The notes under the pieces: generated by a model
Database searches by the model: none
What the model was told of the DNA's origin: nothing
Seen by the model: only the letters and a program-made list of their open reading frames with translations
Position numbers and translations under genes: made by a program
Shown here: one piece after another, positions 1,815 through 49,707 of the stretch
How positions within the stretch are numbered: position 1 is the stretch's first letter
Layout of the letters: every line of letters begins with the position of its first letter
Source of the DNA: Cliona cf. orientalis
Lineage: Eukaryota; Porifera; Demospongiae; Clionaida; Clionaidae
Assembly (NCBI GenBank): GCA_963930775.1
Contig: OZ005700.1
Span: 8,938,609-9,002,608 of the forward strand
Reading direction: 5' to 3'
DNA: 64,000 nucleotides

Positions 1815-4346
1815 CCTTACCACTCAATTCTAAGAGATTGACTGGAGTCTTGCTGAAGCAGTTGGCGAGAGGACTGGATATCCCATGGCAACACGAAGTT
1901 GAGGAATATCTGAAGAGCTCGTCTCCTCATTGTTGCTGGATTTGGAGCTGTAAAAGGACTCTTCCACCTCCAGTGAAGCTTCTTCCTCAACCAAATCACT
2001 GTCATCACACTTGGAGCTGGCAAACACACCGTGGAAACCTGAGGCTGTTCTGATTCTCCTTGGTGAAGACTCTGATGTTCGCCGCTGATCAGAGAAAGAG
2101 TGCTATCTCGAAAGAAATCTGAAGAGCTCTCGCTGTCAATCCTTCCCATTCTTAAACTGTTCACTTCTGGAGAAGCCTCCTTCAGTGGACTCGGTGCAAG
2201 CTCAGTCGACCAAGTCATGATCAGTACTGCTTCGAACATCGATATCGACTGATGCTGAAGGATGTTCTTTAAGAACAGTGTCCCCTGGTTTTTGCTTTTC
2301 TGCTTCTGCTTCTAATTTGTCAATGCTTTAGTCATCACAGTCATTTGATTTAGTGCACTGATTGGCTGATGCCACAAGTTATGCTCTCAGCTGCTCACAA
2401 TTAGCAGTCTGAACAGCGTTGACCTCTTCAAGTTGATACATACCTGAAGATCCCTTTTTCTCAAATGGGCTTTTCCATTTTATAAGCAAACACCCCCTAT
2501 TGAGGAGCAAATTGTGAAATGACCCCTCAGGAACTAATCAACTCATTTTGCCCCCTAAGAATAATTAATTTGGACAGTTGAACCCCCTAGGATCAATTAA
2601 ATTTATCTGAAATACCCTCTGGAAATTAGTAAGTGGTTGCTTGACCCCTCCGGAATCTATTTTTTGATAGAAAATACCCCACAAGATTAATTAAAATCAC
2701 CAAAATAGCCCCATAAGAACCAATTAAATTGCCAAAAGGACCCTCAAGAAACTCACAAAAAAAGACCCCTCAGGATGTAATTATCACTCCTCAATGGGGG
2801 GTGTATGCCTATTAAATGGAAGAGCCCAATATTAAGCTGTGGAAGGACTCCTCCACCTCTAGAGAAGTTTGCTCAGGTGGTAAGTCGTAACTATCACAGT
2901 TGCTTGATATGACTCCGGGACAGCTGTAAGCACACACTGAGTAGCTGATGCTATTGCTTTACATAAGCGGATCAGCAGCTGATGATAACTGGTGTGGACT
3001 CTGAAAGTTGATAATATCTGGATGAAAATCTGAAGAATTCAGTTCTATCCGAGCATCACCTGCCAGTGGCTCTTTTGTGCCTACATGTACGTCATCGGTG
3101 ATATGGCCATCGAGACAGCTGCCAGCTATAGGTTGGGGGCTGCTCTCAATGGATTGGTCAGCAGATGCTAGCTGATGTGGGCTCAGATGTTGATCACCAG
3201 CAACACTCTGAAGGCCATCTTGGTGAAGAAGTGGATCAGAGGTGGCATCATCTCCGAGGTTCACCTTGGTGCTGTGACTGGAGGCTTGAGAAGCAGTGCC
3301 GATAGATAGGGGTTTATCTACGATATCTCGATCGTAGTTGGTATGATCATCAGTGTTTGACTCCCATGATTGGTTCATGGTCAATTTTAGAGCAGCAGCG
3401 CTTCGTTGTATTCCTTCACATGTACTGTTAACACCACAATCATCAGTCTGGGATTTGTTACTCGAGTCACGATGATTGCTCGACAGAGACACTATGCATA
3501 TACTCAGCACTTGATGCCACTTGGTGTAGACTGAAATGTTTATCCATAGACTGAATACTGCCTTGAAAATAATCTGAAGAGCTATTGTCGTCAATAATTT
3601 TGCTTGCTCTGGAGCTGTTCACCTCTAGATCAGTGTAGGCTAAGATGCTTACTAGTAATAAGACGAAGGCTGCGTGGGTTAAAGACATCTGAGGAGCTTT
3701 GATTGTCAATTTGGCTTGCTTTCAAGGTATCCATCTTTAGCTGCTCACAATCAACAGACTGAACGGTGCCAGCACCACGAGTCTCTGAAGCACTCTGTTC
3801 CTCAATGTTGCTTGACTTGTAGCTATAGAAGGATTCCTGCATCTCAATATAAATTTTTCCAGACAGTGATTCACTGTCACCAAAATCACGATCAACACAT
3901 TTAGAGCTGCTGTTGTGCACACGTTGTTCAGTCGATCCCACTTTGGTGTAGACTCACATGCTCGCTACCAATCAGAGAATGAGTGCTGCCTTGAGAACAT
4001 GAAAAGTGGTAGTTGCTACCACTGCTGCTTGATGTTCAGAGAACTGCAGACAGAGATGTGAAAACCACCAGCAGATGAAGTTGCATGCATGGCCAAATCA
4101 TGATCACCACTTTTTTTCGTCTTTTCTGCAGCTTCTTCGACAAACTGATGTGGGGTTGGTTTCTCGCAATCTTCTCTACAATCACTTTCATCAGATGTTG
4201 CAAATAAATCGTCTTGATCATACGGCTGAGTAGCAGAGATGCCACTGATGCCCTGTCCAGCCAACTCTGCTGCTTTGAGATGAGATACCACTAATACTGC
4301 CCTAGTCAATACAGCTGCTACCAATTGAGCAGCATCGGACTTCTGA
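1815..4346 (-). pseudogene. Decayed, rearranged paralogue of the receptor-tail gene family (inverted copy)
   Basis: Minus-strand fragments in shifting frames match the plus-strand relative at 7,200-9,900. Shared blocks include the peptides CREDCEKPTPHQFVEEAAEK (near 4,140), DSSNKSQT, HQLASADQSIESSPQ (near 3,140) and STLSLISGEHQSLHQ (near 2,080). Order is not preserved: the block matching 7,860-8,350 follows the one matching 9,300-9,800, so the copy is rearranged or carries extra units. Frameshifts, stops and an inserted element (2,467-2,827) rule out an intact product. The right end is cut by the repeat array at about 4,346. I see no ectodomain or membrane exons here. Confidence 0.7.
2467..2827. 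mobile_element. Inverted-repeat element filled with a degenerate minisatellite
   Basis: The ends are imperfect inverted repeats of about 41 bp (GGGCTTTTCCATTTTATAAG at the left, complement of TTAAATGGAAGAGCCC at the right). The interior is a run of degenerate units of roughly 40-50 bases built on CCCCYNAGRAAYNAATTAA. The element interrupts the minus-strand pseudogene. No clear target-site duplication is visible. Confidence 0.55.
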
Positions 4347-5722
4347 GCAGCTGGATACACGTGCAAGATACTCTACATATTTCACTGAATTTCAAGTCCC
4401 AGAAGGGCTCCATCGAGGCCCTGAATTTTCTCATAATTACCTCATAGATTACACCATAGGTTTCATCATAATTACTCATAATTACCTAAAAAAGTAAATT
4501 GTTACTGAGTGCATAATGAAAAACTTAGACTACATCCAGAGTCCCTCATGAATACACCGCCATAATTCAAACTAGGATCCGGACACATTGACAAACTGCG
4601 CATGCTCCGTATACGCGTATATTATTATTGGGGCGCGTGGCTTGAGCCGGTTGACCTTCACCTGCCATATGTGCTCGACTGAATAGGGAAATGAACAAAT
4701 CCCCCCTGAAAGCGAGCTCGCTAAAGAAAGCGAACTGAGAGAATCGCCATATATCATCGGATAGTCCACGATCTCTTCTACGCTAGGTTCGAATTCTGGG
4801 TCCCAACACCCTGTCATGCGAGCTAAACATCTTGAAGCAGTCTTCACCCCAATTTCATCATAGATTTCATCATCATTTCATCACAATTACCTCATCGGTC
4901 GGCCGAAGCGATTTGTTGATTGGGACTCTGGACGTAATGAACAACTTAGACTACATCCCGAATCCCTCATAAGTATTGCACCGCGCTGTCTGTACGCCGC
5001 CATAATTCGAACTAGGACACATCGACAAACTGCGCATGCTCCGTATATAATAATATTGGGGCGCGCGGCTTGAGCCGGTTGACCCGGACGTGACCTCCAC
5101 TGCCATGTGCTAAACTGAAATAATACGGAAATCCCCCCGAGTGCGAACTTACCAAAGAAAGCGAACTGAGAAAATCGCCATATAATATGATATATTATAT
5201 CAATCGATAGTCCACGATCTCTTCTACGCTAGGTTCGAATTCTGGGTCCCAACAACCTTTCATGCGCGCTAAACATTTTGAAACAGTTTCACAGCAATTA
5301 CATCATCATTTCATCATCACTTCGTCATTAATTACCTCATCGCGAGGCCGAATTCTTTTTTGCGGATTGGGACTCGGGATGTAATGAGCAGCTTTAATAG
5401 AGACTACATCCCGAGTCCCTCATAAGTATTGCACCGCGCTTACTGTACGCCGCCATAATTCGAACTAGGACACATCGACAAACTGCGCATTCTCCATACA
5501 CGCGTATATTGGGCTATCCCGCAGCTGTTTTCAAACCCTAACCCTGTATATTATACCAAACCCAAACCCCGCCCCTTCACGTGACCAATTGTAACCGGTT
5601 TGACCAATCAGATGCAGAAGCGACCTTTGAAATGAGCTGCGGTACTATAGGGGCGCGCAGTTTGAGCCGGTTGACCCGAACTTGACCTCCACTGCCATGT
5701 GCTAGGCTGAACAGGGAAATCC
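4346..5722 (+). repeat. Tandem array of about three 440-bp repeat units
   Basis: Units begin near 4,500, 4,935 and 5,380. Each carries CCATAATTCRAACTAGGA, GGGGCGCGYGGCTTGAGCC, AAAGAAAGCGAACTGAGA and GGTTCGAATTCTGGGTCCC, the last only in the first two. A single copy including the left flank (CTGGATACACGTGCAAG type) lies in WDR1 intron 4 at about 37,207-37,757. A shared minus-strand frame of about 90 codons occurs in both places but resembles nothing I know. GGTTCGAATTC resembles a Pol III B box; no matching A box is evident. A short CCCTAACCC stretch sits near 5,537. The array truncates both flanking pseudogenes. Confidence 0.6.
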
Positions 5723-5728
5723 CCCCGA

Positions 5729-8700
5729 TGAAATTCAAATCTCACAAAGGAGACAATCAATAAGTATCAACCTCTTTCCTACTTCGACTCGATTTGGACC
5801 AATAAGATAACTAACTCTGATGGTGATTTCTGAACACAATATCAATTATTGCTTTTCAGTGGATATCAGGTTCAGTTTCACCTGGTGAAGGGTAAAAGCC
5901 TTAATGGGCTGCCCTTGATTGATTATGTTCCACATTTACTATCCTCTCGACTTGTTTCAAAGAGTGAGGCCCAGCTCTCTACTGAAGCCAAGTCCTTCCG
6001 TCTTGATTTTGAAAATGGAACACTATACCAGTCAATATAGTGATTGGTCGAAAGCTAGCTACTCCAGGGAGCTCTAAAGACTGGCAAAGAGTACACTGTA
6101 GCCACTGTGCCTTATACAGTGTTTGTGGTAAGTTTCCATGTACAAATACTCATGTGCAGTGACATTCTTCTCTTGTGTACAGAAGGAGAATGAAAGTGTC
6201 TTACCGTTTACTCCCAGCAGCCTATCTGCCATATTCAAGACTTGTGAGTCCTCCTAGTCTATCAAGCTAGACCCCTTTTTCGCCTGACGATCTTTACCCA
6301 CTCTATCCACACGCGAAAAAGCGGTCTAGCAAAGGTCAGTGTTGGAATGCAATTCATTTGGTGAAGCCATACGAGTGCGTTCTTGGCTCAAAAGCAAGAA
6401 AACAGCAGCAGATGGCCCAATCTGATGTTATCATGTTTGAAAGTAAGCTCTAAAAACACTAAACATAGCATAGTAGGCCGAGTTTAGTGCCCGTTTTTGC
6501 CAATTGTTACTCTACACCCATGCATAAATTGCTTGCATGAATTTCAAAAGCTGAATCTGATTGGCTAGACAAAATTTGATTAAACCTGACCTTTGCTAGA
6601 CCCCTTTTTCGCGTATAGATATAGTAGGTAAAGGTCGTCGGGCGAAAAAGGGGTCTAGCTTGATAGACTAGAGTCCTCCAAATTCCTCACCCAAACTCCC
6701 TTAGTGAATTTTATATCATTGTGCAGGGAATGCTTCCTCGACCCCAGCTCTCTTGGACACAAAGGATCCGGCTCTGGTTGTTGCACTTGGTGTTGGCCTG
6801 CCCTTATTGCTACTAGGGTACCTGGCCCGCTTTGCAGTAGCCCTGTATTGCTTCCTTAGGAGGAGGAGAAAGAAGGGGATGAGAAAGGAATACTCCAGAA
6901 GATACCTCCTTAGGAATATGATTATCGTGAAACTATTGGGATTAAATTTATTCATCTTTCCCCAGGGATGTTGTCCAGGCGCTGGCACCGACAAATTCCC
7001 AGCAGATGGGCATAGAGCTACCACAGCTGGACCCTTTCTCCCCAGCCAATGCTCAGCCAAGGATAGTCTCATCATCCTCCTCTCAAGTTGATCTAAACCA
7101 GCTGGAGGCTGGTTATGGCCCTCGTGCTCAGCCACCAGATCCAGTGATGCCCAATGATGTTGTGCTAACAGATACACCACCAGTGTATAGTGCAGGAACA
7201 GATGTATCCAGCAGGCAAGAAGATATTGATAGCACTGCGGCTGCTCAGAAGTCCAATGCTACTCAACTGGTAGCAGCTATATTGACTAGGGCAGTATTAG
7301 TGGTATCTCATCTCACAGCAGCAGTGGCTGGACAGGGCATCAATGGCACCACTGCTACTCAGCAGCATGATCATGACGATTTGTTTGCAACACCTGGTGA
7401 AAGTGATTGTAGGGAAGATTGCGAGAAACCGACCCCACATCAGTTTGTCGAAGAAGCTGCAGAAAAGATTAACGAATGCGATGATTTTCATGACGGTTCA
7501 TTTGTGACATCTGACAATGCTGAGTTAGCAGAAAGTGATACTAGAGAAGATTGCGAGAAGCCGACCCCACATCAGTTTGTTGAAGAAGCTGCAGAAAAGA
7601 CGAAAAAAGTGGTGATCATGATTTGGCCACGCATGCAACTTCATCTGCTGGTGGTTCTCACATCTCTGTCTGCAGCTCTCAGACATCAAGCAGCAGTGGT
7701 AGCGATTATCACTTTTCGTGTTCTCAAGACAGCACTCATTCTCTGATTGGCAGCGAGTGTGTGTATAATAGCAGCTCTAAATGTGATGATCATGATTTTG
7801 GTGACAGTGAATCACTGTCTGATGGAAGAGTTTGTATAGAGATGGAGGAGTCCTACACTAGGGAAGAGGGATCTTCAGATCAACTTGAAGAGGTCAACAC
7901 TGCTGAGTCTGCTAATTGTGAGCAGCTGAGTGCACAACTTGTGAAATCGGCCAATCAGTGCACTAAATCGAACGACTCTGATGACCAAAGCACTGACAAA
8001 TTCGAAGCAGAAAAAGAAAAGCAAAAACCAGGAGACACTGTTCATTCGGCATCGATTGACAGTAGTGTTCAAAGCAATACTGACTTAGCTGATCATGACC
8101 TCATACTTACACTGAAAGAGGCTTCTCCAGAAGTGCAGATTGACAATGAAGGCTCTTTAGATTCTCCTCAAGACAGCACTCATTCTTTGATCAGTGGTGA
8201 GCATCAGAGTCTTCACCAAGTGGGATCGACTGAACAGTCTGTGTTTGCCAGCTCCAAGTGTGATGGCAGTGATTTGGGTGATGAAGGAGCCCCACTAGAG
8301 GTGAAGGAATCCATTCATAGCTCAAAATCCAGCGGCAGTGAGGGACAGAGTGCCTCAGAGCTTCACAACGACAGCACTACCAAATGTGAACAGCTAAGTC
8401 CACAATGTGATACAGGATCAGGTACTCAGTGCTCTGACAGTGAAATAGGTGTAGAAAAGTCACTAGAGGGAGCTGCTACTCTGGAGGCAAGCCACTCAAT
8501 ACCTGACAGCAGTTTAGTCGAATTACCTCTACCTGGTTGGAAGATATTTCTCAAGAGGTCGACAGTTCAAGAGTAACTGGCACAATTATTGACGATCGAC
8601 ACCCAGCAGATTTTTGCCAAGACAGTCATAAGTCTATTCATTTTAGCCAACAACAAACATCAGCAGCTCAGTGTGAGCTTACTCTCCCGATATCGAGCAG

Positions 8701-11160
8701 CTGTGATGATCATGACTCGATAGATCATGAGAGCAAAACACAGCCTCGAGAAGCTTCTTTAGTGGCAAATGAACCATTTTATATCTCCATATCAAGCACC
8801 AGTGAGGAAAAGAACACTTCAGATAATGAAGAAGATACCCTTCAATCTGCTGACTATGAACAGCTGATAGCAGCATCTGCATCAGCTGATCAGTGTGCTA
8901 TTAAAACATGATGATCCTATAGTGCTGATAATTCAGAAGCATTAACTGATTATGACTTCAGTGAGAATGAAGCACCACCTGAGGAGGCTTCTTTGGAGGT
9001 GGAGGAGTCCTTTTACAGCTCCGAATCCAGTGATGATGAGGATCAGTGCATGTACTTCAGTGATTCAACTCAGCAGCACTGTTCATGATCAGTCTACCAA
9101 TTGTAAAGAGCTGAGTGTAGCATCGGCCAATCAATGCACCGATGGCCACGGCACTGAGGATTCAAGCACAAAGCAACTACAAGGAGATGCTATCCTTGAA
9201 CTGCAATGCTCAGTATCGGTCGAAAATGATGATCGAATCAGTGATAGTGAGGGTTCACCTCCACTTGAATTGGAAGATACTACTCTAGAGGTGGACAGCT
9301 CCAGAGCAAGCAAAGTTATTGACGAAGATAACTTTGTCTCTTTGTCGAGCACTTATCATGACTCGAGTAACAAATCCCAGACTGAGAATTTTTCTTCAGA
9401 TGAGGATACATCTCGTTACAGCTCCAACAGTACATGTGAGAAAGCAAAACAAAGTCCTGCTGCTCTTGAATTAACCACGAGCCAATCAGCTCAAGTCTCC
9501 ATTCACAGTGCCAAAATGAGTTTCAGTGATGATGGTACCTCTTGTTCAATTCTTCATCACCAAGATGGCCTTCAGACTGTTGCTGGTAACAATCAACATC
9601 CAAGCCCACATCAGCTAGCATCTGCTGACCAATCCATTGAGAGCAGCCCCCAACCTATAGCTGGCAGCTGTCTCGATGGCCATATCACCGGTGACATATA
9701 TATATGTAGGCACAGAAGAGCCACTAGCAGGTGATGCTCAGACAGAACTGAACTCTTCAGATTTTCATCCAGATATTTTCAACTTTCAGAGTCCACACCA
9801 ACTAGTATCAGCCACTGATCAATTTATGCAAAGCAACTCTTCCAACGACGCTGATCATAGCAATGATCATGAGCATGTTATTACAGACATGGAGGAATCT
9901 ATAGATAGACCACCACTACCCATCACCACTTCTCAAGCCTCTGTTCACAGTACTAAAATGAGTTTCAGTGATGATGGTACCTCTGATTCATTTTTTCACC
10001 AAGATGACCTTCAGAGTGCTGCTGGTGATGATCAACATCCGAGCCCACATCAGCTAGCATCTGCTGACCAATCCATTGAGAGCAGCCCCCAACCTATAGC
10101 TGGCAGCTGTCTCGATGGCCATATCACCAACGACATACATGTAGGCACAGAAGAGCCACTGGCAGGTGATGCTCAGACAGAACTGAACTCTTCAGATTTT
10201 CATCCAGATATTGTCAACTTTCAGAGTCCATACCAGCTAGTATCAGCTGCTGATCAGTTTATGCAAAGCAACTCACTGAAACCAACCAATAACGCTGGTT
10301 ATAGCAACGAGCATGTTATTACAGACATGGACAACTTTACTGCATCAAGTTCACAGTGTAGCAGTGAGCCGGCTGCAGACAGTGAAGATGGCCACACTAC
10401 TCCCAGTCACCCGATGATGACACCAAACCAACATGGCTACTGTGCCCCTGAAGTTGGGATTATCATGGAGCCACGTGTGCACAGTAGCTCGAGGCTAAGC
10501 AGCTATAGCGATTACGGTGCAGGGGAAATGGACAAACCACTACCAGGAGATGTTTTGCTAAAAATGGATTTTGATTACTGTGATGATAAACTGTCACCAC
10601 TGCCTGGAGATGCTTCTCCAAAGCTGAACAGTGACATTGATCACAATGGAAATTTTCATCAACACTACTTGACTATCACAGCTACAGCTCGTCTGACTGT
10701 AGTTATCCTTTAGAGCCCGATGATGAATGCCCAAGTCTACAGCAAGTTGAAGCGACAGTTCAAAGGCTACCCAGGTTCAGCGATTACCAGCTGAGTCCAG
10801 TTGGATCTGTAGTATCTGCAGAAAATGAAACTCGTATTCTCACCATCGGTGCTTCTTCATGCAATACAATTGTATCAGACCCTTCGACTGAATACTATAG
10901 TGCTGTATCGGAGATGAGTAGTCATGATAGTGGCCACCGGCTGAGCTCTGTCGGTTCAGTACTCTCCAGCGAAGATGAAGTAAGAATTGGTATGGAACCA
11001 GAGGGGTCTCCCAGTGATAATAACAGCAGTATGCTAAAAAAGAATAGTTCTCCGTATTTGTTCATTCCAAGGGGCTTGTCAAGTGGAGCATGGAAAAGCA
11101 GCAGCTCCCTGACCAGCGGTTCACGTAGCGATAATCAGAGTGTAACAGTATTGATTATTT
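5729..11160 (+). pseudogene. 5'-truncated, frameshifted paralogue of the FN3/TM/repeat-tail receptor gene
   Basis: Homology to the intact gene starts inside its exon 4 (5,729), so the signal-peptide and first ectodomain exons are missing. Copies of exon 5 (5,860-about 6,130), exon 6 (about 6,183-6,243), the membrane exon (about 6,728-6,901) and the tail (from about 6,968) follow in order. Damage: two splice donors changed from GT to AT (5,807 and 6,902), a 2-bp insertion in exon 5 giving an early stop, a transposon in the intron at 6,255-6,670, and at least four tail frameshifts (about 7,600 in an A run, 8,540, 8,915-8,950, 9,700). The tail is SD-rich and differs from the intact gene's 50-residue units, but the last segment (10,680-11,160) returns to the same sequence (peptide SSDCSYPLEPDDE). 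The individual frames are long, so some frameshifts could be assembly errors, but not all. Confidence 0.75.
6255..6670. mobile_element. Non-autonomous DNA transposon, TAGTCT ends, 9-bp target duplication
   Basis: Terminal inverted repeats of about 50 bp (TAGTCTATCAAGCTAGACCC at the left, its complement at the right) are flanked by perfect 9-bp duplications GAGTCCTCC (6,246-6,254 and 6,671-6,679). Subterminal CGCGAAAAAGCGGTCTAGC-type inverted copies lie inside. There is no transposase frame. Nine-base duplications are typical of Mutator-like elements. It sits in an intron of the pseudogene. Confidence 0.8.
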
Positions 11161-11217
11161 AACTCTAACTGATTATGTACTCTGAACTTATGAATATGCT
11201 AATTAGTACACTATGTA

Positions 11218-13123: not shown

Positions 13124-13486
13124 TCAGAGTGCAAAAGCTGGGTAGATATAGCCGTGGTACTGCCACATGTGGTCTACTCCATCACCGATAATTGCTAGAA
13201 TTATTTTTGTGAACATTGTGGCATGATGACTACCACCGTTGTCGTCTTCGATTTTCACTTTAGCCACCAAACTCTTCGACAGCTTCATGACGGCGTCACA
13301 CCTGGAACACTGACCACAAACACTATCAATCTGTAGAACTTTTGAGTGGCATTCCAAGCAGCTTGGATACTGCTCTAACCCCACAACACTCGCAACTTGT
13401 CCTTCAATAATGGTTTCTTCTTCAATTAATCTCTGATCAACTTTTCCAATGTCTGGAATTGGCACAAGTTCCGAATCATGCTCCAA
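13124..13486 (-). CDS. RPA-like single-strand-binding protein of the Helitron
   Basis: 120-codon minus-strand frame containing CLEC, then 13 residues, then CSRC: a four-cysteine zinc ribbon followed by an OB-fold-like stretch (KLSKSLVAKVKIED). This matches the C-terminal DNA-binding part of replication protein A large subunits that Helitrons of plants and some animals carry, presumably to coat single-stranded DNA during rolling-circle transposition. Full RPA1-like proteins are much longer, so this is a fragment or a single-domain version. Its start overlaps the Rep frame by 9 bases in head-to-head orientation, which may reflect a rearrangement. The family assignment rests on the cysteine pattern and context only. 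Confidence 0.5.
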   Translation of the reverse strand: MEHDSELVPIPDIGKVDQRLIEEETIIEGQVASVVGLEQYPSCLECHSKVLQIDSVCGQCSRCDAVMKLSKSLVAKVKIEDDNGGSHHATMFTKIILAIIGDGVDHMWQYHGYIYPAFAL

Positions 13487-15199
13487 TACCGTGGTGCATT
13501 ATTACTTGAGTGTACTCGTTGTCACAATGACAGCAAACAACCAAAACTGTATTCTCTTGAGAATAACATGGATCCTGGGGTAGTTCCTATTGAGCTCAGA
13601 GGATTAACACAAGTCGAGGAAATGTTGATCTCTGCAGTAATGCCCTTGATGTCAGTCTATAGATTACCTCATGGGCAGTATGGTTATAATGGTCATGTGA
13701 TTAATCTTCCTCAGAATGTCTCTTCCATTGCCACTAAGCTACCACGATTGCCAAATGATCTTGATATACTCATAATTACAAAAGAAGGGCAAAATGCATC
13801 CCATAAAGATTTTCATGTACGAAGGCATAAAGTCCAACAAGCACTTCATTGGTTAAAACTTCAAAATAAATACTATGCTAACATAGAAATAGATGAATCT
13901 CATATATGCCAACTGCCTATTGATGGGGAAATTGCTGTACCAACCACTATTAACTCAAATGAGTCTCTAAGTACAAGTGAACAAGAAAATTGTTTAGATG
14001 ACACCTTTCTTTCTGGGACCTTTGTTCCTATGAATTTTACAAAAGGTATAGTAAAAAATAGTGTTGTTGAACGTCAACAATTTTCCCACACTACTATTAC
14101 ATGGCCTCAGATTCAAAACAATCCCATCAATGAATTTAAAACTGAAGGCTATATGACATGTGTATTTCCATCACTTTTCCCCACTGGTGCTGGAGATTTT
14201 TCTCAGCCGCGAATGCGTGCTGTAACAATTGGAAATTACATCAAACACTTAATGATGTATAAAGATGGGCGTTTTGCAACTCATCCTCGATTTCGCTTTT
14301 TTGCACTAAATACTGAGATGAGATGGCGTGCTCTACAAGCTGGTAGAATCTACATCAAACAACATCCACAAGATGCCCTTTTGTCAGTTGAAGAACTGAG
14401 AGATATGGTAGGGAATGGAAGTGAAGCTTTTTCAAATAGAGTTCTTCATTTTGCAACTAGTTTACGTGGTACTCGTCCATACTGGTTTAAGCAGCGTAGT
14501 CGTCTTATTGCTATGGTCAATAGCCTTGGATTACCTACTATTTTTTTTACTCATAGTGCAGCTGACACACAGTGGCCTGAACTTGCAAATCTAATTTGTA
14601 AAAATAATCCACAGAGCAAAGCCAAACGTACTGAAGCTGTTATAAAAAACCCAGCAATAGCAGATTGGTTTTTCTTCCAACGGATTAAACTATTCATTAA
14701 GCATTTCTATAAAGATATACTACATGCAAAAGATTATTGGCTTCAGTTTGAATACCAACACCGCGGTAGTCCACATGTTCATGGACTAGCATGGTTAGCA
14801 GGTTCACCCAATATGGAGGATCTTGAAGTAGAAACTCCAAATCATGAAAAAAAACAACAAATCACAAACTATATTGATTCAATTGTCACAACTATCAATC
14901 CAGCCATTTTAATTGATGGAAGTAATCTTTCTGAAGCACCTTGTCCACAAGCTGATCCACACATATGCAATAAACCATACAAACATGTAGAAGATTTTGA
15001 TACAGATTTAGCACAATTAGTAGCAACCTGCCAAAGACACACTAGATGTTCCACAGCTTATTGCCTCAAAGAGAAGAATGGGAAGCAAAATTGCCGATTT
15101 GGGTATCCTAAGGAGCTACACTTAGAAACTACTATAGAATATTATTCAGATGGTGAATTAAAGCTATTATATAACTGCCAGAAACGATCCACTTATTAA
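13478..15199 (+). pseudogene. Helitron Rep/helicase, N-terminal part with HUH motif
   Basis: 573 codons. Near residues 15-18 is CTRC, then ENNMDPGVVPIELRGLTQVE, the conserved entry of Helitron Rep proteins. The Helitron-like N-terminal domain follows (peptide CVFPSLFPTGAGDFSQPR near residue 228). The HUH metal-binding motif of the rolling-circle endonuclease is in HRGSPHVHGLAWL near residue 432. The frame ends at a stop, but the homologous sequence continues one frame over (NDPLINSYNPFQLSAWRANV), so there is a 1-base frameshift near 15,180. The protein would nick one strand at the transposon end; this copy cannot make a full-length product. Confidence 0.85.
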
Positions 15200-15956
15200 T
15201 AGCTACAACCCATTTCAACTGTCAGCATGGAGAGCAAATGTAGATATGCAGTACTGTGTATCTCGCCGCAAGGTTATAGAATATTGTGCTAAATATGCAA
15301 CTAAATCAGAACCTAGATCAGAGCCTCTCAAATTGGTCTATAAAAACATTGTAAAACAATTAGCAGATCAAGATAAGCCATTAAAAGCAGTACAGAAATT
15401 ACTCGTAGGTGAAAGGGATTATTCAGCACAAGAAACATGCCACTTATTGCTCCAACTGCCCTTATACATGGCTTCAAGAGATTTTGTTATTCTTAGTGTA
15501 GATGGTACCCGTATGGTTCAGGATCAGTTAAATGAAGATAGCCCTGCCACAGCCTTATCCATAGTTGATCACTACAGAAACCGTCCAAGAGAGTTTGAGC
15601 ATATCACATTACTTGACTTTGCACAGAAATATACCATGCCTCGTGGTCAAGCAAATGACCCATCACTTACTATAGAACTAAAGAAGTTGTGGTCATTATT
15701 AAACCACACTATCATCCAGATCCTGATGGTCCTCATTATGAAGACTACTGTCGCCAAAAATTGATGCTGCATAAAACATTCAGAAATGAAACAGATTTAC
15801 TTGGAGAACATGTAAGTTTTGCACAAGCATATGCCACCTACCTTCAGTCAGAAACAGTACCTGCAAGCCTTGAAGATGATATCCTTATGCTTCAACAATT
15901 GCATGAATGTAGTAATGACAGTCAAGAAATAGCTTCAATGGAAACATTAGATAGTC
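15185..15956 (+). pseudogene. Helitron Rep catalytic-tyrosine region (frameshifted)
   Basis: Continues the Rep after the frameshift at about 15,180. The peptide VIEYCAKYATKSEP (near 15,270) holds the two-tyrosine catalytic motif (Y-x3-K-Y) that forms the covalent link to DNA. A second frameshift near 15,690 moves homology to another frame (HYHPDPDGPHYEDYCRQKLM), which continues to EEWMLI and then runs into the 84-bp palindrome. Confidence 0.8.
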
Positions 15957-16039
15957 AGCATTCTAGCACAAGGCAGAGAGAAGAATGGATGCTCATATAT
16001 GAGCATCCATTCTTCTCTCTGCCTTGTGCTAGAATGCTG
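15956..16039. repeat. Perfect 84-bp palindrome inside the Helitron
   Basis: The left arm, starting CAGCATTCTAGCACAAGGCA, is followed without spacer by its exact complement ending GCTAGAATGCTG, centred between 15,997 and 15,998. I found no mismatch on reading it through. The left arm is in frame with Rep (REEWMLI); the right arm is its inverse copy and replaces native sequence. Confidence 0.95.
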
Positions 16040-17050
16040 TCAGCAACTGCAACAAATTGATGAGCAACCTATAAATGTAAACAATAGTGTTGACTGGTGT
16101 GAGGCAGCCAGAAGTTATCCCAATCTCGAAGAAATGCCAAAATTCATTATTCACCATAAGGAAACAACCACTATTCAACAGCATAGTCCACCTGCTAACC
16201 CACAATTACTTCAAGGAAAGCAGCTTGAAGCATATCAAATTGTTCAAACACATTTTACAGATGAAACACCGTTGCCACTAAGGATGATTATTTCAGGCAC
16301 AGCTGGTACAGGCAAGTCATTTTTGATAAATTGTTTAAAGAGTTTACTACAAAAGGTTGTTAGAATAGCAGCACCGACAGGAGTTGCAGCATTCAATGTA
16401 CAAGGATGCACACTACATTCACTACTGCATCTCCCAACAAAAGGAGAATTCAAAAGTCTAGAAGGGGAACGACTCCAACAGTTGCAGGAGTCTTTACGTG
16501 GTGTCAAATATATCATAATTGATGAAATGTCCATGGTTGGAAGAAAACTCTTTGGTCAAGTGGATAGCCGCCTTCAACAAGCTTTCCCACATTCAGCTGA
16601 TGTAGTCTTAGGTGGTTGTTCTGTTTTACTCTTTGGGGACTTTGGTCAACTTCCACCAGTGATGGATTTACCACTGTATTCATCAGATATGAAATCACCT
16701 CTATCAGATCTTGATAGAACTGCATATCAATCAGCAATAGTATTAACCCAAGTAATGCGACAACTTGGAAAAAATCCTGAACAGGTAAGATTTAGAGAAA
16801 TTCTTCTGCGTTTGAGAAATGCACAAGTTACAGTAGAAGATTGGCAACATTTGATGACCCGTTCTGTTACATGTATAAGCAATAATCATGATTTTGGGGA
16901 TGCTCTATACCTGTATCCCACTGTTGATGCAGTTGCTGAGCACAACATTAAAAAACTTAGCCAAAATCATCAACCAATAGCCAAAATAAAAGCTGTTCAT
17001 AAAGGACCTAATGCAGATAAAAGTAGCTCTGATGATGCAGGTGGTCTAGA
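16040..17050 (+). pseudogene. Helitron Pif1-type helicase, N-terminal part
   Basis: Superfamily 1 helicase core: Walker A GTAGTGKS (near 16,300), APTGVAAFNVQG (motif Ia), the DEMSMVG Walker B (near 16,520) and GDFGQLPP (motif III, near 16,640). These unwind the DNA strand during rolling-circle transfer. The protein stops shortly after SSSDDAGGLE because the next ~200 bp are inverted. Confidence 0.85.
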
Positions 17051-17248
17051 ACCTTAGGTACTGATCCATCTACAAGTGTTGGGCCTGAGTAACAATCAAA
17101 ATGAACCATTATAGCTAGTGGAAGTGAAGGAGGACCACCATTTTGGTAGCATATAGCCTTTACTGTTCCCATTGAACCATTGACTAATCCACTTTCAACC
17201 CATAAATTTGAAATAAGCATGACTCGAGCACCTTGAGCCAAATTAATG
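17050..17248 (-). pseudogene. Inverted internal segment of the Helitron helicase
   Basis: Read on the minus strand this encodes AQGARVMLISNLWVESGLVN followed by GSMGTVKAICY, the part of a Helitron helicase expected between GGLE (left) and VPIRRTW (right). Its orientation is opposite to its neighbours on both sides, so the segment has flipped in place with almost no loss. Confidence 0.85.
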
Positions 17249-25561: not shown

Positions 25562-28500
25562 ATGATGGCGCTCTTCTCCGTCCTTCTTCTTGTTGTATCC
25601 GTCCAAGGTAGGATTTTTGGAAGCTCTATGTTGGCGAAAAAGCTTATTCTAATATTTTTCTCTCTATCTGTAAAATTTAGTGGCAATCTGTAAGCCATAC
25701 GATTTGGCCGTGACTGATGTTGGATCGAACTCCGCGATTATTCATTGGAAGACAACTGAACTGTCAACAACGATCGAAAACTTTCGGGTAAATAATACTA
25801 GTGCACTAATTTTCAATACTTAAGCGACACTGTCTACTAAAAAAATCTACTTCTTTTTCCAGATTCTTTGCAATGGAACTCGCCACTATGTATCAATGGA
25901 TGGCGAACATTTGTTGGATACTGATAATAAACTACAATATGCTCCCTCGGGAACGAAAAAAGCTCCTGTTGGAGCCTTGAAGGAAAACTTCAATTACTCT
26001 TGTACCGTTCAAGAAGAAATTTCTTCTCAAGTGCCAATTCTTCACGGTGAATTCAGTGACCCTTGTAATTTTTCAACGGACTATGGAGGTAATTTTTGTG
26101 CTCATCACATCTGATACTATCTTTAATAATAATATTGTTGTTTTTTCAGATCCTGAACAACCGAAGACACCTGAAGTTCAGATCTCACGAAGGAGACAAT
26201 CAATAAGGATCAAGCTCTTTCCTACTTCAACTCGATTTGGACCAATAAGGTAGCTATGGTACCTGATCACTTGCCAGCATAGCACTTGTCATTATTTTTA
26301 TTACTGTTTTTCAGTGGATACCAGGTTCAGTTTCACCTGGTAGAGAGTAAAACCCTTGACGGGCTGGCCTTGATTGATGACGATGCTTATGATCCATATT
26401 TACCATCCTCTTTGCTTGTTTCAAAGAACGAGGCCCAGCTCTCTACTGAACCCAAGTCCTTCTGGCTTGATTTTGAAAATGGAACACTACCAGTCAATAT
26501 AGTGATTGGTCAAAAGTTACTCCAGGGAGCTCTAAAGGATGATGTAGAGTACACTGTAGCCACTGTGCCTTATACAGTGATTATGGTAAGTTTCCACATA
26601 AAAATATTCATGTGCAAAGACACAAAAATTTAATAATTTTTTTTTTCTCCTGAGTGCAGAAGGAGAATGAAAGTGTCTTGTTATTTACTCCCAGCAATCT
26701 ATCTACCATATTCAAAACTTGTGAGTCCACCACATTCCTCACCAATTGAAGCTCAGACTCCTTTAGTGATTTTTGTATCATTGTGCAGGGAATGCTTCCT
26801 TGACCCCGGCTCTCTTGGATACGAATGATCCAGCTGAGTTAGCTCTGGTTGCTGCACTCGGTGTTGGCCTGCCCTTGTTGCTACTAGGGTACCTGGCCTG
26901 CTTTGCTGTAGCTCTGTATTGCTTCCTTAGGAGAAGGAGAGAGAAGAGGATGAGAAAGGAATACTCCAGAAGGTACCTCCTTTAATCTGATTATCTCACT
27001 AAACCCCTATTATTATTATCACTATCACCCAAATATCTTATCTGCTGTAAAATTTTATCTCAGAACCTTTTTTTTCACTCTTCCCCCTTACGCTGTTGTA
27101 TATGCTCAGATTGGTTTTTATCTTTATTGTCTCATCATTTTTATTAGAAAGACCACATTATTACGTAATTGTTAGTTCCATGCTCTATTATTTTACTCTG
27201 ATCTATTAATTGATATTGAAATCTGAACTGACTACATAGTATTACACAAGTCCAATAAAAAATGCTAGTATGATACTATGTTTGCAGTGAAATCTGTAGT
27301 GTAGCTATCTTATTATTTGGACACGGCATAACAGCCATGAGGTGTGATTATCACATCAGGATTAGCTTATACAGCCACAATAAAATCTACATGAGAGTAT
27401 GGTTATTAAATTTTACTCCTCTTTCCTCTAGGGACGTTATCCAAGCGCTGGCACTGAGAAGAGCCCAGCAGATGGGCATAGAGCTACCTTGGTACAATCA
27501 CAGGACCACTGATGAGAATCAGGGAGACTTGCCATGGCTGGACCCTTTCTCCCCAGCCAATGCTCAGCCAGAAGACAACGCTGTTCAGTCTGCTGCTGAT
27601 TGCGATAATCATAGCATTATTGATTTATTAGCAGAAAAAGATTGCAATTTGGGTGAGAGTAAGCCACCACCTGAAGAGGCTTCTTTGGAGGTGGAGGAAT
27701 CATTTTACAGCTTGAAATCAAAGAATGTTGAGGAGCAGACTGCTTCAGTGATTCAAGTCGAGGCATCAAGTGATCCATATTCTTTCAATATCAGAGATCA
27801 CAGAATCAGTGCCAGCTACAGCTCGTCTGACTGTAGTTATCCTTTAGAGCCCGATGATGAATACCCGAGTCTACAGCAAATTGAAACGACAGTTCAAAGG
27901 CTACCCAGGTTCAGTGATCGCCAGCTGAGTCCAGTTGTGTCCACAGAGCGTATTCTCATGGAGCTTGATGAAGTGGAACTCCCGCACACCAGATATGGTG
28001 ATCAGGAGCTACCTGATGCTGCTATTGATAATCACACAGTTGTATCGAACCCTTCAAATGATTACTATAGTGCTCTATCAGGGATGAACAGAAATGATAG
28101 TGGCAACCACCTGAGCCCTGCCAGTTCAGTACTATCCACAGAAGATGACTTAAGGATCATCATGGAACCAGAGGAGCCTCCCAGTGATACTAATAGCATG
28201 CTGAAAGCAAGCGAGTCTATTTTGTCCGGCCATCACAATGAGAGGAATGACTTCACCACTAGCATATACATAGGTGCTTCTCAAAAGCCGAATAGTGACA
28301 ATCATAATGGTAATTTTGATCAACACTACTTGACTATCGGAAGTGAACAACAGGGAGTGGCATCGAGTGATCCGTATTCAGAAAATGAAACTCATATTTT
28401 CCTGGAGTTTAATGAAGTGGAACTCCCACACAGCAGACATGGTGATCAGGAGCTACCTACCATTGGTGCTATGTCATACAATACAGTGGTAGCAGACCCT

Positions 28501-31500
28501 TCGACTGACTACTATAGTACAATGAGCAGTCGTCATAATAGTGGCCACCACATGAACCCTGAACTCCCATACAGCAGATATTATGGTGATCAGGAGCTAC
28601 CTGATGCTTCCGTTGATGCTACTTCACATCATACAGTGGTAGCAGATCCTTCGACTGACTACTATAGTACAATGAGCAGTCGTCATAATAGTGGCCACCA
28701 CATGAGCCCTGAACTCCCATACAGCAGACATTATTGTGATCAGGAGCTACCTGATGCTGCTATTGATAATCACACAGTTGTATCGAACCCTTCGACTGAC
28801 TACTGTAGTGCTATATCGGAGATGAGCAGTCATGATAGTGGCAACCACCTGAGCCCTGCCAGTTCAGTACTATCCACAAAAGATGACTTAAGGATCATCA
28901 TGGAACCAGAGGAGCCTCCCAGTGATACTAATAGCATGCTGAAGGCAAGCGGGTCTACATATTTGTCCGGCCATCACAATCAGAGGAATGACTTCACCAC
29001 TAGCGTATACATAGGTGCTTCTCAAAAGCCGAATAGTGACAATCATAATGGTAATTTTGATCAACACTACTTGACTATCAGAAGTGAACAACAGGGAGTG
29101 GCATCGAGTGATCCATATTCAGAAAATGAAACTCATATTTTCATGGAGCTTAATGAAGTGGAACTCCCACACAGCAGACATTATGGTGATCAGGAGTTAC
29201 CTGATGCTTCCGTTGATGCTACTTCACATCATACAGTTGAACCAGACCCGTCGACTGACTACTATAGTACAATGAGCAGTCGTCATAATAGTGGCCACCA
29301 CATGAACCCTGAACTCCCATACAGCAGACATTATGGTGATCAGGAACTACCTGATGCTTCCATTGATGCTACTTCACATCATACAGTGGTAGCAGATCCT
29401 TCGACTGACTACTATAGTACAATGAGCAGTCGTCATAATAGTGGCCACCACATGAGCCCTGAACTCCCATACAGCAGATATTATGGTGATCAGGAGCTAC
29501 CTGATGCTTCCGTTGATGCTACTTCACATCATACAGTGGTAGCAGATCCTTCGACTGACTACTATAGTACAATGAGCAGTCGTCATAATAGTGGCCACCA
29601 CATGAGCCCTGAACTCCCATACAGCAGATATTATGGTGATCAGGAGCTACCTGATGCTTCCGTTGATGCTACTTCACATCATACAGTGGTAGCAGATCCT
29701 TCGACTGACTACTATAGCACAATGAGCAATCGTCATAATAGTGGCCACCACATGAACCCTGAACTCCCATACAGCAGACATTATTGTGATCAGGAGCTAC
29801 CTGATGCTGCTATTGATAATCGCACAGTTGTATCGAACCCTTCGACTGACTACTGTAGTGCTATATCGGAGATGAGCAGTCATGATAGTGGCAACCACCT
29901 GAGCCCTGCCAGTTCAGTACTATCCACAGAAGATGACTTAAGGATCATCATGGAACAGGAGGAGCCTCCCAGTGATACTAATAGCATGCTGAAAGCAAGC
30001 GGGTCTATTTTGTCCGGCCATCACAATCAGAGGAATGACTTCACCACTAGCGTATACATAGGTGCTTCTCAAAAGCCGAATAGTGACAATCATAATGGTA
30101 ATTTTGATCAACACTACTTGACTATTGGAAGTGAACAACAGGGAGTGGCATCGAGTGATCCATATTCTTTCAACATTGGAGATTACAGAATCAGTGCTAG
30201 CTACAGCTCGTCTGACTGTAGTTATCCTTTAGAGCCCGATGATGAATACCCGAGTCTACAGCAAGTTGAAACAACAGTTCAAAGGCTACCCAGGTTCAGT
30301 GATCATCAGCTGAGTCCAGTTGTGTCCACAGAGCGTATTCTCATGGAGCTTGATGAAGTGGAACTCCCGCACACCAGATATGGTGATCAGGAGCTACCTG
30401 ATGCTGCTATTGATAATCACACAGTTGTATCGAACCCTTCGACTGACTACTGTAGTGCTATATCGGAGATGAGCAGTCATGATAGTGGCAACCACCTGAG
30501 CCCTGCCAGTTCAGTACTATCCGCAAAAGATGACTTAAGGATCATCATGGAACCAGAGGAGCCTCCCAGTGATACTAATAGCATGCTGAAGGCAAGTGGG
30601 TCTACATATTTGTCCAGCCATCACAATCAGAGGAATGACTTCACCACTAGCGTATACATAGGTGCTTCTCAAAAGCCGAATAGTGACAATCATAATGGTA
30701 ATTTTGATCAACACTACTTGACTATTGGAAGTGAACAACAGGGAGTGGCATCGAGTGATCCATATTCTTTCAACATTGGAGATTACAGAATCAGTGCTAG
30801 CTACAGCTCGTCTGACTGTAGTTATCCTTTAGAGCCCGATGATGAATACCCGAGTCTACAGCAAGTTGAAACAACAGTTCAAAGGCTACCCAGGTTCAGT
30901 GATCATCAGCTGAGTCCAGTTGTGTCCACAGAGCGTATTCTCATGGAGCTTGATGAAGTGGAACTCCCGCACACCAGATATGGTGATCAGGAGCTACCTG
31001 ATGCTGCTATTGATAATCACACAGTTGTATCGAACCCTTCGACTGACTACTGTAGTGCTATATCGGAGATGAGCAGTCATGATAGTGGCAACCACCTGAG
31101 CCCTGCCAGTTCAGTACTATCCGCAAAAGATGACTTAAGGATCATCATGGAACCAGAGGAGCCTCCCAGTGATACTAATAGCATGCTGAAGGCAAGTGGG
31201 TCTACATATTTGTCCAGCCATCACAATCAGAGGAATGACTTCACCACTAGCGTATACATAGGTGCTTCTCAAAAGCCGAATAGTGACAATCATAATGGTA
31301 ATTTTGATCAACACTACTTGACTATCGGAAGTGAACAACAGGGAGTGGCATCGAGTGATCCATATTCAGAAAATGAAACTCATATTTTCATGGAGCTTAA
31401 TGAAGTGGAACTCCCACACAGCAGACATTATGGTGATCAGGAGCTACCTGATGCTTCCGTTGATGCTACTTCACATCATACAGTTGAACCAGACCCGTCG

Positions 31501-32016
31501 ACTGACTACTATAGTACAATGAGCAGTCGTCATAATAGTGGCCACCACATGAACCCTGAACTCCCATACAGCAGACATTATGGTGATCAGGAACTACCTG
31601 ATGCTTCCGTTGATGCTACTTCACATCATACAGTTGTATCAGACCCGTCGACTGACTACTATAGTGCTGTATCAGAGACGAGTAGTCATGATAGTGGCAA
31701 CCACCTGAGCCCTATCGGTTCAGTACTCTCCAGTGAAGATGATGTAAGGATCATTATGGAATCAGAGGAGTCTCCTGATGATAATAATAGCATGCTAAAA
31801 ATGAGCAGCTCTACGTCATTATTCATCCCAAGGGGTTTGTCGAATGGACCTTTGAAGAGTAGCAGCTCCCTGAACAGCCACCAGAGGAACGACTCCACCA
31901 CTACATTTCACAGCATACTCCTTGTGCAGCTCAGTGGGTCTAGTGACAGTGAAGAGGACAAGCACCAGAGATCTAATGATCCTCAACTTCCTTCACCCAT
32001 CTATGAACCCTATTAA
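25562..32016 (+). CDS. Type I membrane protein: FN3-like ectodomain, one TM, giant repetitive intracellular tail
   Basis: Eight exons (25,562-25,607; 25,681-25,787; 25,863-26,088; 26,150-26,249; 26,315-26,585; 26,660-26,720; 26,789-26,972; 27,432-32,016), all with GT-AG borders and compatible phases, total 5,580 nt or 1,859 residues. Residues 1-17 form a signal peptide (MMALFSVLLLVVSVQ). Residues about 18-265 look like two FN3-like folds (SNSAIIHWKTTE; SGYQVQFHL) with several N-glycosylation sites (NGT, NYS, NFS, NES, NLS, NAS). Residues 288-317 span the membrane, followed by RRRREKRMRKEYSRR as stop-transfer. The tail (about 318-1,859) has 200-residue and 50-residue repeats rich in Ser, Asp, His and Tyr, with no known enzymatic domain. 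The single last exon encodes the whole tail. Two broken paralogues lie at 1,815-11,160. A surface receptor or adhesion role is inference from architecture. Confidence 0.8.
28561..29900 (+). repeat. 150-bp (50-residue) tandem repeats in the receptor tail
   Basis: Unit starts (GAACTCCCATACAGCAG) fall at 28,561, 28,711, 29,161, 29,311, 29,461, 29,611 and 29,761, exactly 150 bp apart within each run, so the frame is preserved. Each unit encodes PELPYSR-YGDQELPDAS...TDYYSTMSSRHNSGHHM. Two more lie at about 31,408 and 31,558. Confidence 0.9.
30022..31325 (+). repeat. 600-bp tandem duplication in the receptor tail
   Basis: 30,121-30,720 and 30,721-31,320 are identical base for base on line-by-line reading, and identity runs back to about 30,022. 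A diverged first copy starts near 27,760. The unit encodes 200 residues and keeps the frame. Confidence 0.9.
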
Positions 32017-32210: not shown

Positions 32211-34864
32211 TCAGGACCAGACTAGTTTTCCCTCTCGCTCAAATAATGGACGACTTTGATGACAACCCTTCCTGAAGTTTTCAAAATCGGGTTGGGTGAC
32301 CTGCCTACAGTGAGACAAGTCAATTCTCCTCAAGTGAGGACACTGCTCCCAGATGTGCTGCACTCCAGCTATCGTCACATGATGGCATCGAGATAAATCA
32401 AGTGTGCTTAGAGGATGGTGGACTTCATCGGGAAATATGCTCTTAACAGTTTCATCGGTAATGGCCTGTCCGCTCACGTCAAGTTCTTCAAGCATTTTTG
32501 GCTGACCTAGCATCATTTCCAAAGCCCTTTCAGCCGACACTGGACGCATCTCACTCCCTTGCTTCTCTTTAGCATCGATAGAACTTGAGCCTAGGTTCAG
32601 TGAAACTAGCTGTGGGCAGCAGTCGCCTAACGACACACACGGACAGCTCACTGATATGCGAGTACGGCTCAGGTCAAGATGTTCGATTCTGGGACAGTTT
32701 GTGACAATTACTTCAAAGCTGACGTGAGCAAAGTACGAGAGGTTGAGTGACTGTAGGTGGACGCCTATGGCATTGATAACTGGCGTTATGCCTTTCTCAA
32801 AGATTTCTACCGGTTCACATGGATAAAACTGCCCTCCAATCAGTTCCAAATCTGCTACTCCTGTCAGCTTCCCGATATTTTCGTACATTTGAGGAGGAAG
32901 GGTAGTGCTAGATATTGAAAATTTGCGAAGATCAGGGTGAAATTTTGGTATCATCTCCAGTGCTGTTCTGGACAGTGCTGTCGATTTCACATCAAGATGT
33001 TGCAGCAGTCTTAGATGGGTGGAACATGAGGGCTCCAAAAGCCTCCAAGGATTGCAGATGTCCGTATCTGATAAATTTAGGTTGCGAAGGTTGGGTAGGC
33101 TCTGCAGCAGGATGGCACACACTTGATCATTGAGATTGACATTGACAAGTGACAGTGTTTCCAGCTCAATACAGCCAAACTCTGAGCTGTGGTCCTCAAC
33201 ATTCAGCGGTAGAACTATTGGATCGTCGTTCTCATACAAATCCTCATCACTATCTCCCTCATCAGTAGTCTCACTCTCCTCCCCATTTCTCTCCGGGAGC
33301 TTCTGGTCTGCTGGAGGGTCACTATGGCTCTCATTATCACCAGCAGCAGCAGAGAGAGAGGGGGAGCCTTCGGGTACCTGCACGTACTCAATGTCGCCCC
33401 TCACCCTCCTAGCTAGCTGGTTTTCATGTTCTTCTTTTGTTGGAAATCGCCGACTCATTACACGTACATTAGGACCAGTGACTACATCCATTTGACCACT
33501 CAGGGCTGCATGCACGATGCTACCACAGCTCATAGCCTGAAGATGGCCACGGCGTTCTTGCTCTACATCGTAGTTATTCTGACCAACAGGATCATGCAAG
33601 ATTTGCAACATATTTCCGTCCTGACTCTGGCACATCAACTCTTCATGATCCTGCCCCTCACAACACTGACTACTGGTGCTGGGTGAGCACTCTACGGTCA
33701 ACAGCTGTTGCATGAGTGTTGAGACATCTTGGTGCTCCATTGGTGACGTGTCTTGACTACTGTCTCCACTGATTGCCATAGGTACCACGCAACCATCCAT
33801 ACCTCCCTCAGTTTCACACACAAACGACGATGGCTGAGCTGACAATCGATTGTGGTGGAATATGATACTACCGTGTGAATCTGCTACATGATATCTCAAT
33901 CTCGCACTAAAGAAGTCCTGGAAATTGGAACTCAAATCTGGTACCACACTATATCCAGAAGCACAGTCATCAGGCTCTCCTTCCATGGCCACTGACTGAT
34001 CCCTTTCTACCATCGACTCATCAAGACTAGTAGTGTGAGTGTGGCCACTGGTTTCTATCGTGGCATGACATTGTGCAACAGTCTGTGCAGCCTTAGAGAC
34101 AACAGAGTTTGGTAGAGCTACTTTTCCACACAGAACGAGCAAGCATTTTGGATCTTCCACACGAAAATCAGAGAGTTTGAGGACGCTAAGATATCGGCTG
34201 GAGTGAGCAAGGGTGCGTACTACTGAGAGATCAACCTTTGGGTTGAGTTTATAGGAGATATCCAGATAGAGAAGAGAGGGGTTCTGCTGGAGAATGTCAC
34301 ACAGAGCCTTGTTGGGAACCTTTGTGCAGTTGGGAATGATTAACTGCTCTAGATGCTGGAGAGCGGAGAGAGAGAGAGAGAGAGAGAGAACAACATTAAT
34401 GTGATTTTATGCAGACACCATATGCCAGAAAATCGTGCCCAGCTACTGAGCCTATTTCTGCACCTTGCATCTTTGTTTGAGCATCTTGAAGAGTGATACA
34501 TTGACAGCACTAGGAAAGGCGGCGAAATCTATGGTCCTCAGATGATTCACTATCAGCAGACACAGCCAGACTGAGTCCAGCTGCCCAGTAGATATCACAT
34601 AGTCGAATATCACCTCAATACATCTCGAAGCTACAGCATTAAAATCACATTTAATACGTGGCCTCTTAGATCTGCATATTAATTAATATGCTGGGACTCA
34701 CATAGGTATTGAAAAGGTCCCACAGTGGAGTGGTATTTTCCCAGATCTCCGAAGTTGATTCCTGGACAAAAATCCTTGATGTCTTTGACGATTTTTAGTA
34801 CGCAGATTCTGGCCAAGGCGGGCACGGGATAGGACATTTTGAAGGAAGATTTGAACGCACCCAC
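32211..34864 (-). CDS. Leucine-rich-repeat protein with long acidic insertion
   Basis: Main exon 34,355-32,211 (stop at 32,211-32,213), upstream exon 34,671-34,464, and a first exon near 34,864-34,702. The 34,463-34,356 intron is clear (AAG/GTGCAG ... CTCTCCAG/CATC) and joins KMLKQRCK to HLEQLIIPNC in frame. Leucine-rich repeats precede and follow a low-complexity, Ser/Asp/Glu-rich insert of roughly 250 residues (codons of 34,130-33,230). The C-terminal repeats (LQSLNLSYFA, IEHLDLSRTRI, LSTLDLSRCHHVTIAGVQ, LRRIDLSHCRQVT) are of the cysteine-containing RNI/AMN1/FBXL or ZYG11/ZER1 kind, often substrate adaptors of ubiquitin ligases. No F-box or VHL box is recognised, so the exact family is open. 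The first-exon join is uncertain: see findings. Confidence 0.65.
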
Positions 34865-49585: not shown

Positions 49586-49707
49586 GATCAAGAGAAGATA
49601 GTTTTCGTCTTCCGAGCCTTGGTTGAGTTCCGAACTTTGCGAGCAGCAGAATTTTTCCGAGTGAGTCCCCAAGCGGTGTTCTGGAGAAGTAGAGTAAAAG
49701 CCAACCA

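Follow-up and report, generated by a model that had tools for sequence, protein, structure and literature searches.

We analyzed a 64,000-nucleotide window of the sponge Cliona cf. orientalis (contig OZ005700.1) that contains, at positions 25562-32016 of the forward strand, a real gene for one single-pass receptor-like protein. Tentatively, we favor the reading that this protein is an FN3-type receptor whose tail would be a multiplied docking scaffold for SH2 proteins.

The gene consists of eight exons (Table 1), which are in frame from the ATG at 25562 to the stop codon at 32016 and encode a spliced product of 1,859 residues. All seven introns (7 of 7) are bounded by GT-AG and have phases 1,0,1,2,0,1,2. 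The stop-free run at the tail spans 1,580 codons and is not due to chance, because the longest run was 192 codons when the window was shuffled 20 times by mononucleotide and read in three forward frames. In the predicted layout, a signal peptide precedes ~265 extracellular residues, and a single membrane segment with a basic stop-transfer leads into ~1,540 cytoplasmic residues. This topology was read from hydropathy alone, so that both the signal peptide and the membrane segment are predictions. Besides the N-terminal hydrophobic segment, one further membrane segment was observed (19-residue windows starting at 284-301), followed by RRRREKRMRKEYSRR, an arginine-rich, basic stop-transfer. The cytoplasmic tail starts at approximately residue 319, and ~1,528 of its residues come from exon 8. 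An earlier note on this DNA had described the same arrangement, from the signal peptide to the ~1,540-residue tail, and the splice model and hydropathy agree with it.

The distal domain of the ectodomain (D1) is an FN3 domain. Pfam fn3 matched residues 21-102 with 28.9 bits (cut-off 25, E 1.4e-6), and D1 scanned alone still gave 26.9 bits. The membrane-proximal domain (D2) scanned alone had no Pfam match at E ≤10 within the HMMER filters. The ectodomain contains four cysteines, at residues 19, 54, 98 and 119, all in exons 2 and 3, and seven N-x-S/T sequons, which are predicted glycosylation sites. The earlier note's description of the ectodomain as FN3-like is supported for D1 only, and the glycosylation that it named is predicted from the sequons. 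Against PDB sequences, D1 had no match, the whole ectodomain had four chance-level matches (E 0.57-1.3), and D2 with the membrane segment had five (E 0.11-1.4), none of which was a uroplakin or a receptor protein tyrosine phosphatase (PTPR). With a longer query, the Plasmodium family Stevor matched residues 231-330 (E 0.0087), spanning part of D2 and the membrane segment; at 16.1 bits, below the cut-off of 25.4, it was taken as a chance match. FN3 domains are common in this genome (1,071 first-look candidates; the matches listed among the 150 scored exceed the cut-off), and therefore the FN3 domain itself says little about function. Beyond FN3 in D1, no characterized family was matched by sequence, in agreement with the earlier note, which had called the protein undescribed. 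Judged by titles, no paper on this gene was found.

The exon 8 tail contains 251 serines and 79 tyrosines and has a net charge of -167. Approximately 110 juxtamembrane residues precede a multiplied C-terminal module, with short repeats of 150 bases and long repeats mostly of ~600 and up to 1,050 bases. The reading frame is intact through all of these repeats. Two of the long units are one synonymous base apart over 200 codons, so the amplification is in part very recent; such near-identity suggests that the number of units may vary among individuals. Across nine pairs of units, the ratio of nonsynonymous to synonymous substitution rates (dN/dS) was calculated. One pair had no nonsynonymous change and the other eight gave 0.37-0.72, with 0.37-0.48 in five well-aligned pairs; the three highest values (0.54, 0.68 and 0.72) all involve the less well aligning C-terminal unit. 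The deficit of nonsynonymous changes in four of the nine pairs had one-sided binomial p values of 0.010, 0.039, 0.0017 and 0.012, for pairs that share sequences and are not independent. Judged by these comparisons, purifying selection is acting on the tail repeat units.

The earlier note had also described the tail as free of known domains, and this holds in substance. T6_Ig_like, a streptococcal pilus domain, matched part of the repeats at 26.2 bits, just over the cut-off of 25, and was taken as a chance match on repetitive sequence. Four other Pfam matches on the whole tail exon, DUF3535 and INTAP among them, were all below the cut-off, and no PH or PTB domain was found in the Pfam scan of exon 8. 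Two matches of the tail to PDB sequences were at chance level (E 0.89-0.96). The sequence DSGNHLSP is repeated six times in the tail (window positions 28307-31887). The DSGxxxS pattern resembles the beta-TrCP phosphodegron, of the kind present in several cytokine receptors.

The tyrosine motifs of the tail speak for the favored reading. YxxQ occurs 12 times, compared to a mean of 3.08 in shuffled sequences, and none of 1000 shuffles reached 12. YxxM occurs seven times (shuffled mean 1.95), and one of 1000 shuffles reached this number. YxxQ is present in 12 of the 13 short units with a DQELP core and in all three such units of copy C, a relative of the gene described below, and it survives a one-residue insertion or deletion (HTRYGDQ/HSRHYGDQ). 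The amplified module also holds seven YSTM (YxxM) and five YLTI motifs. YxxM is a binding site for p85. PMC1963337 describes YxxQ as a site for STAT3 and YxxV as one for SHP-2/SOCS3.

Under the docking reading, the protein would be a type I membrane receptor that has a short ectodomain of FN3 type, lacks a catalytic domain and signals via its very long tail. Clustering by a ligand or a neighboring cell would lead to phosphorylation of the tail by a separate tyrosine kinase. The phosphorylated YxxQ, YxxM and YxxI/V/L repeats would then attract SH2 proteins, for which STAT and PI3K p85 are the leading candidates. Amplification of the C-terminal module would supply more docking sites per receptor and thereby a higher signaling gain. 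We infer that the protein reaches the cell surface, that its tail is disordered, becomes phosphorylated and recruits SH2 proteins, and that the amplification raises the gain; the ligand and the kinase are hypothetical.

Judged by profile matches, the same genome encodes STAT. Three STAT_bind matches lie in a row on contig C13 and exceed the cut-off, although one does so only jointly with its neighbors. The exact frames of this locus gave E 2.6e-9 for SH2 and 1e-7 for STAT_bind, and the best PDB match of its SH2 piece, with an approximate query start, was STAT5B (E 5.8e-6). The STAT_alpha profile search of the genome yielded seven matches, none over the cut-off, one of which lies beside the STAT locus. 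A p85-type iSH2 region was over the cut-off in the profile search of this genome. For JAK, the genome profile searches gave one FERM_F2 match below the cut-off (E 3.73) and no Jak1_Phl match; these searches cannot prove absence because both models matched in no control genome. Published accounts disagree on when JAK arose. A 2026 survey reports JAK and STAT in Porifera and traces IL6R only to Mollusca (PMC13203501), JAK is described as absent from unicellular holozoans in PMC8061703, and in a table of PMC8662651 JAK is linked to Chordata and vertebrates. A word search of PMC4054682 found neither JAK nor STAT as a whole word. In Amphimedon, contact with native bacteria is followed by the entry of STAT into bystander-cell nuclei, and the study identified no cytokine or receptor for it (PMC13372038).

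Several observations weigh against a docking role of the tail. The shuffle test overstates the motif enrichment because the repeat units are not independent; they are copies of one another, and the enrichment mainly says that the motif stood in the amplified unit. YxxI/L/V motifs are not enriched (11, compared to 11.76 in shuffles), and the motif count found no immunoreceptor tyrosine-based inhibitory motif in the tail. In nine comparisons drawn from the units of the gene and from copies A and C, the conservation of tyrosines did not exceed that of other residues (one-sided Fisher p 0.48-0.98). The pseudogene-like look of copies A and C weakens this null result but does not remove it. In 4 of 13 units, DYYS has cysteine in place of its second tyrosine, and the invariant core is the whole DQELP, beyond YxxQ alone. 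Each of the six tail frames of copy A has between 2 and 9 tyrosines, and YxxQ occurs in none of them, so the length of the tail did not in itself evolve for docking. The tail is probably disordered, judging by its composition; on a crude disorder scale it scored only slightly higher than the ectodomain (0.160 and 0.098, respectively). Finally, 8 of the 14 control genomes also gave a match to the p85 coiled-coil model, below its cut-off.

Part of this evidence suits a tail that acts without phosphotyrosine, as an acidic serine-rich spacer or scaffold that would work through Ser/Thr phosphorylation, adaptor or cytoskeleton binding and DSGxxxS turnover, with passive tyrosines. Its 251 serines, the net charge of -167 and the six DSG sites are consistent with such a tail, as are the lack of excess tyrosine conservation and the serine-rich, tyrosine-poor tail of copy A. 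The presence of YxxQ in 12 of 13 units and the numbers of YxxQ and YxxM above those in shuffles argue against it, and we consider it a plausible but rather doubtful alternative.

A further possibility, compatible with a docking tail, concerns the origin of the ectodomain, which may derive from an R3 receptor tyrosine phosphatase that lost its phosphatase domain, D2 being the long juxtamembrane FN3 domain. We consider this origin unlikely. The D2 pattern LPVNIVIGQ...LLQGALKDDVEYTV resembles the R3 pattern lP..F.iGd...NGPL...Y.v. The introns flanking D2 and the transmembrane exon have phases 1,1,2, the same as R3 introns 1, 4 and 5. R3 PTPR introns are reported with phases 1,1,2,1,2, introns 1 and 4 also in sponges, and loss of the phosphatase domain from an R3 PTPR has been proposed for uroplakins (PMC5242461). 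However, agreement of three phases could be chance, and the internal introns have phases 2,0 here and 1,2 in R3 PTPRs. D2 contains neither NGPL nor cysteines, so the C3X(n)C4NGPL signature is absent. It had no Pfam match at E ≤10 though PTP_tm is in the library, and its chance-level PDB matches included neither uroplakins nor PTPRs. That the PTP_tm model matched nothing in this genome carries no weight, because it matched no control genome either. In favor of this origin, protein tyrosine phosphatase (PTP) exons are numerous in the genome, with at least 182 matches of E ≤1e-5, a lower bound from 150 scored of 373 candidates. Two receptor-phosphatase stretches of the genome look Ig-like by eye and not like long FN3 domains. 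Dense clusters of PTP exons lie at 7.2-8.3 Mb of contig C15 and 1.92-2.0 Mb of contig C4; in one C15 locus the phosphatase is preceded by a membrane segment and by stretches that look Ig-like to the eye.

The gene lies among decayed relatives. The two that the earlier note had reported nearby are copies A and B, both in the window, and a third, copy C, was located 12-13 kb upstream of the window by a tail search of the genome. The assembly searched comprises 216.8 Mb in 149 contigs, and only the best candidates of each search were scored. Neither a signal peptide nor D1 was found in copy A. Its donors after exon 4 and after the transmembrane exon are no longer GT, and its exon 5 is frameshifted. 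Its tail consists of six successive open frames, long, mostly serine-rich and tyrosine-poor, with a tail acceptor that matches that of the intact gene. An inverted repeat in a copy A intron (6254-6671; 86-base arms, 92% alike) looks like an insertion of a small miniature inverted-repeat transposable element. Copy C opens with the same MMALFSV as the intact gene and runs directly into the tail, lacking the whole ectodomain, with a frame break near its end. ADP-ribosylglycohydrolase exons lie ~2 kb upstream of it (L024:2870-4592). The intact gene has 13 DQELP units and copy C has three; none was seen in the copy A frames. Genome searches with the ectodomain, the juxtamembrane region and D2 returned only the intact gene and copy A. 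For distant relatives, none of 25 pattern matches in genome contigs and none of 129 in viral contigs was confirmed. Relatives were found at this locus only, and one intact member was found. The architecture of the copies indicates that the ectodomain and the tail were one unit before the duplications.

This setting bears out the earlier note's picture of a family that duplicates and decays. The recognition role at a polymorphic locus, which the note had offered as speculation, is not supported by anything observed here. An adhesion or allorecognition receptor would agree with a tandem family showing duplication and loss. However, only one intact copy was found, the repetition is intracellular and not in the ectodomain, copy A lacks a signal peptide and D1, copy C lacks an ectodomain, and copy B consists of tail pieces only. 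The tail varies most among the copies, which would point to signaling output rather than ligand diversity. We therefore regard allorecognition as improbable.

It is very improbable that the protein is a genuine cytokine receptor of class I or class II acting via JAK-STAT, even though the single pass, the FN3 ectodomain, the long tail with no recognized domain, YxxQ and the STAT locus all agree with this, as does the nuclear entry of STAT in Amphimedon, described in PMC13372038 with no cytokine receptor identified. The class I pattern CX9-10CXWX26-32CX10-15C, as defined in PMC1963337, is absent from D1, and WSXWS is absent from D2, also in a relaxed form. The JAK1, JAK2 and JAK3/TYK2 Box1 patterns given in PMC7444064 are absent from residues 319-420, where only PFSP (PxxP, residue 370) and PPP (410) come near Box1. 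Class I membership was rejected by this pattern test. The intron phases differ from the 1-2-1-0-1-0 given for class II receptors in PMC8863823, and the JAK models gave nothing over the cut-off, with the limit stated above. Since the class I hallmarks, the class II intron pattern and the NGPL signature and profile match of R3 PTPRs are missing, we place the protein among the FN3-type single-pass receptors, as a form of its own. Its mode of action may be that of a cytokine receptor even though it does not belong to that class.

It is scarcely credible that the tail exon is transcribed separately from the ectodomain exons, or that the gene is dying, since the frame is continuous over all junctions, dN/dS is below 1, the exons of copy A follow the same order and its tail acceptor matches, and the signal-peptide start of copy C is joined to the tail.

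Table 1. Exons of the receptor gene, parts of its tail and relatives in the window
Feature	Position	Strand	Description
Exon 1	25562..25607	+	Predicted signal peptide start MMALFSVLLLVVSVQ (hydropathy); 46 nt, GT donor, phase 1
Exon 2	25681..25787	+	First part of distal FN3 domain D1 (Pfam fn3)
Exon 3	25863..26088	+	Second part of D1
Exon 4	26150..26249	+	Start of membrane-proximal domain D2; relative in copy A at 5709-5804
Exon 5	26315..26585	+	D2 core, no family match; copy A 5855-6127, 67% identical
Exon 6	26660..26720	+	D2 end/stalk
Exon 7	26789..26972	+	Predicted membrane segment (residues ~285-318) and basic stop-transfer; copy A 6729-6914, 80% identical
Exon 8	27432..32016	+	~1,528 residues, acidic serine-rich cytoplasmic tail
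Juxtamembrane stretch	27466..27570	+	QQMGIELP...LDPFSPANAQP; both ends shared with copy A; resembles, does not match, Box1
Amplified C-terminal module	27766..32013	+	6 long units (SSDPYS start), 13 short units (DQELP core)
Copy A, pseudogene	5709..11162	+	D2, transmembrane exon and tail in the same order as in the intact gene
Copy B	1817..4372	-	Inverted tail fragments of copy A type

Other features of the window were also recorded. A Helitron-type element with DUF6570, Helitron_like_N and PIF1 helicase lies at 13430-17057, between copy A and the intact gene. A 731-codon frame with leucine-rich repeats (32211-34406, minus strand) is convergent with the receptor gene and ends less than 200 bases from its stop codon. 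Animal haem peroxidase genes are clustered at 46333-63991; two of them (46333-52289) lie on the minus strand, and the plus strand carries a tandem pair. The members of this pair (52983-56731 and 59244-62980) are 93% identical, and the second has no counterpart of the 659-codon frame of the first.

With the docking reading, a kinase-less FN3 receptor with 12 YxxQ motifs would be a concrete molecule for the gap at the sponge STAT receptor, and receptor output would be tuned by the copying of docking sites within one exon. The widest form of this proposal is that, in an animal outside Bilateria, a lineage-specific kinase-less receptor passes signals to STAT and PI3K, as a candidate for the receptor still sought upstream of sponge STAT, with an SH2-docking module bolted onto an FN3 receptor, perhaps a former phosphatase, independently of bilaterian cytokine receptors. 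To this we give little probability.

Among known systems, the class I cytokine receptors gp130 and Domeless are alike in their single pass, FN3 ectodomain, long YxxQ tail and lack of a detected kinase. In contrast to them, the sponge protein has no class I cysteine pattern, WSxWS, Box1 or sequence match, and its ~1,540-residue tail is internally amplified. R3 PTPRs and the uroplakins UPK2/3 share the single pass and the phases flanking the proximal domain and the transmembrane exon, and they offer a precedent for phosphatase loss (PMC5242461). They differ in that the sponge protein has no detectable sequence match to them, other internal introns, no NGPL and a giant tail in place of the phosphatase domain. 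In Halichondria panicea, almost 200 putative "cytokine receptors" were listed by KEGG comparison, with FN3 among their main domains (PMC8242945); FN3 is common to both, and no kinase was found here. The tail itself can be compared to a different group of proteins. Docking proteins of the IRS/Gab type carry a long region with many YxxM-type sites, and the likeness lies in these sites, whereas in the sponge protein the scaffold would be part of a transmembrane receptor, with no PH or PTB domain found in its tail.

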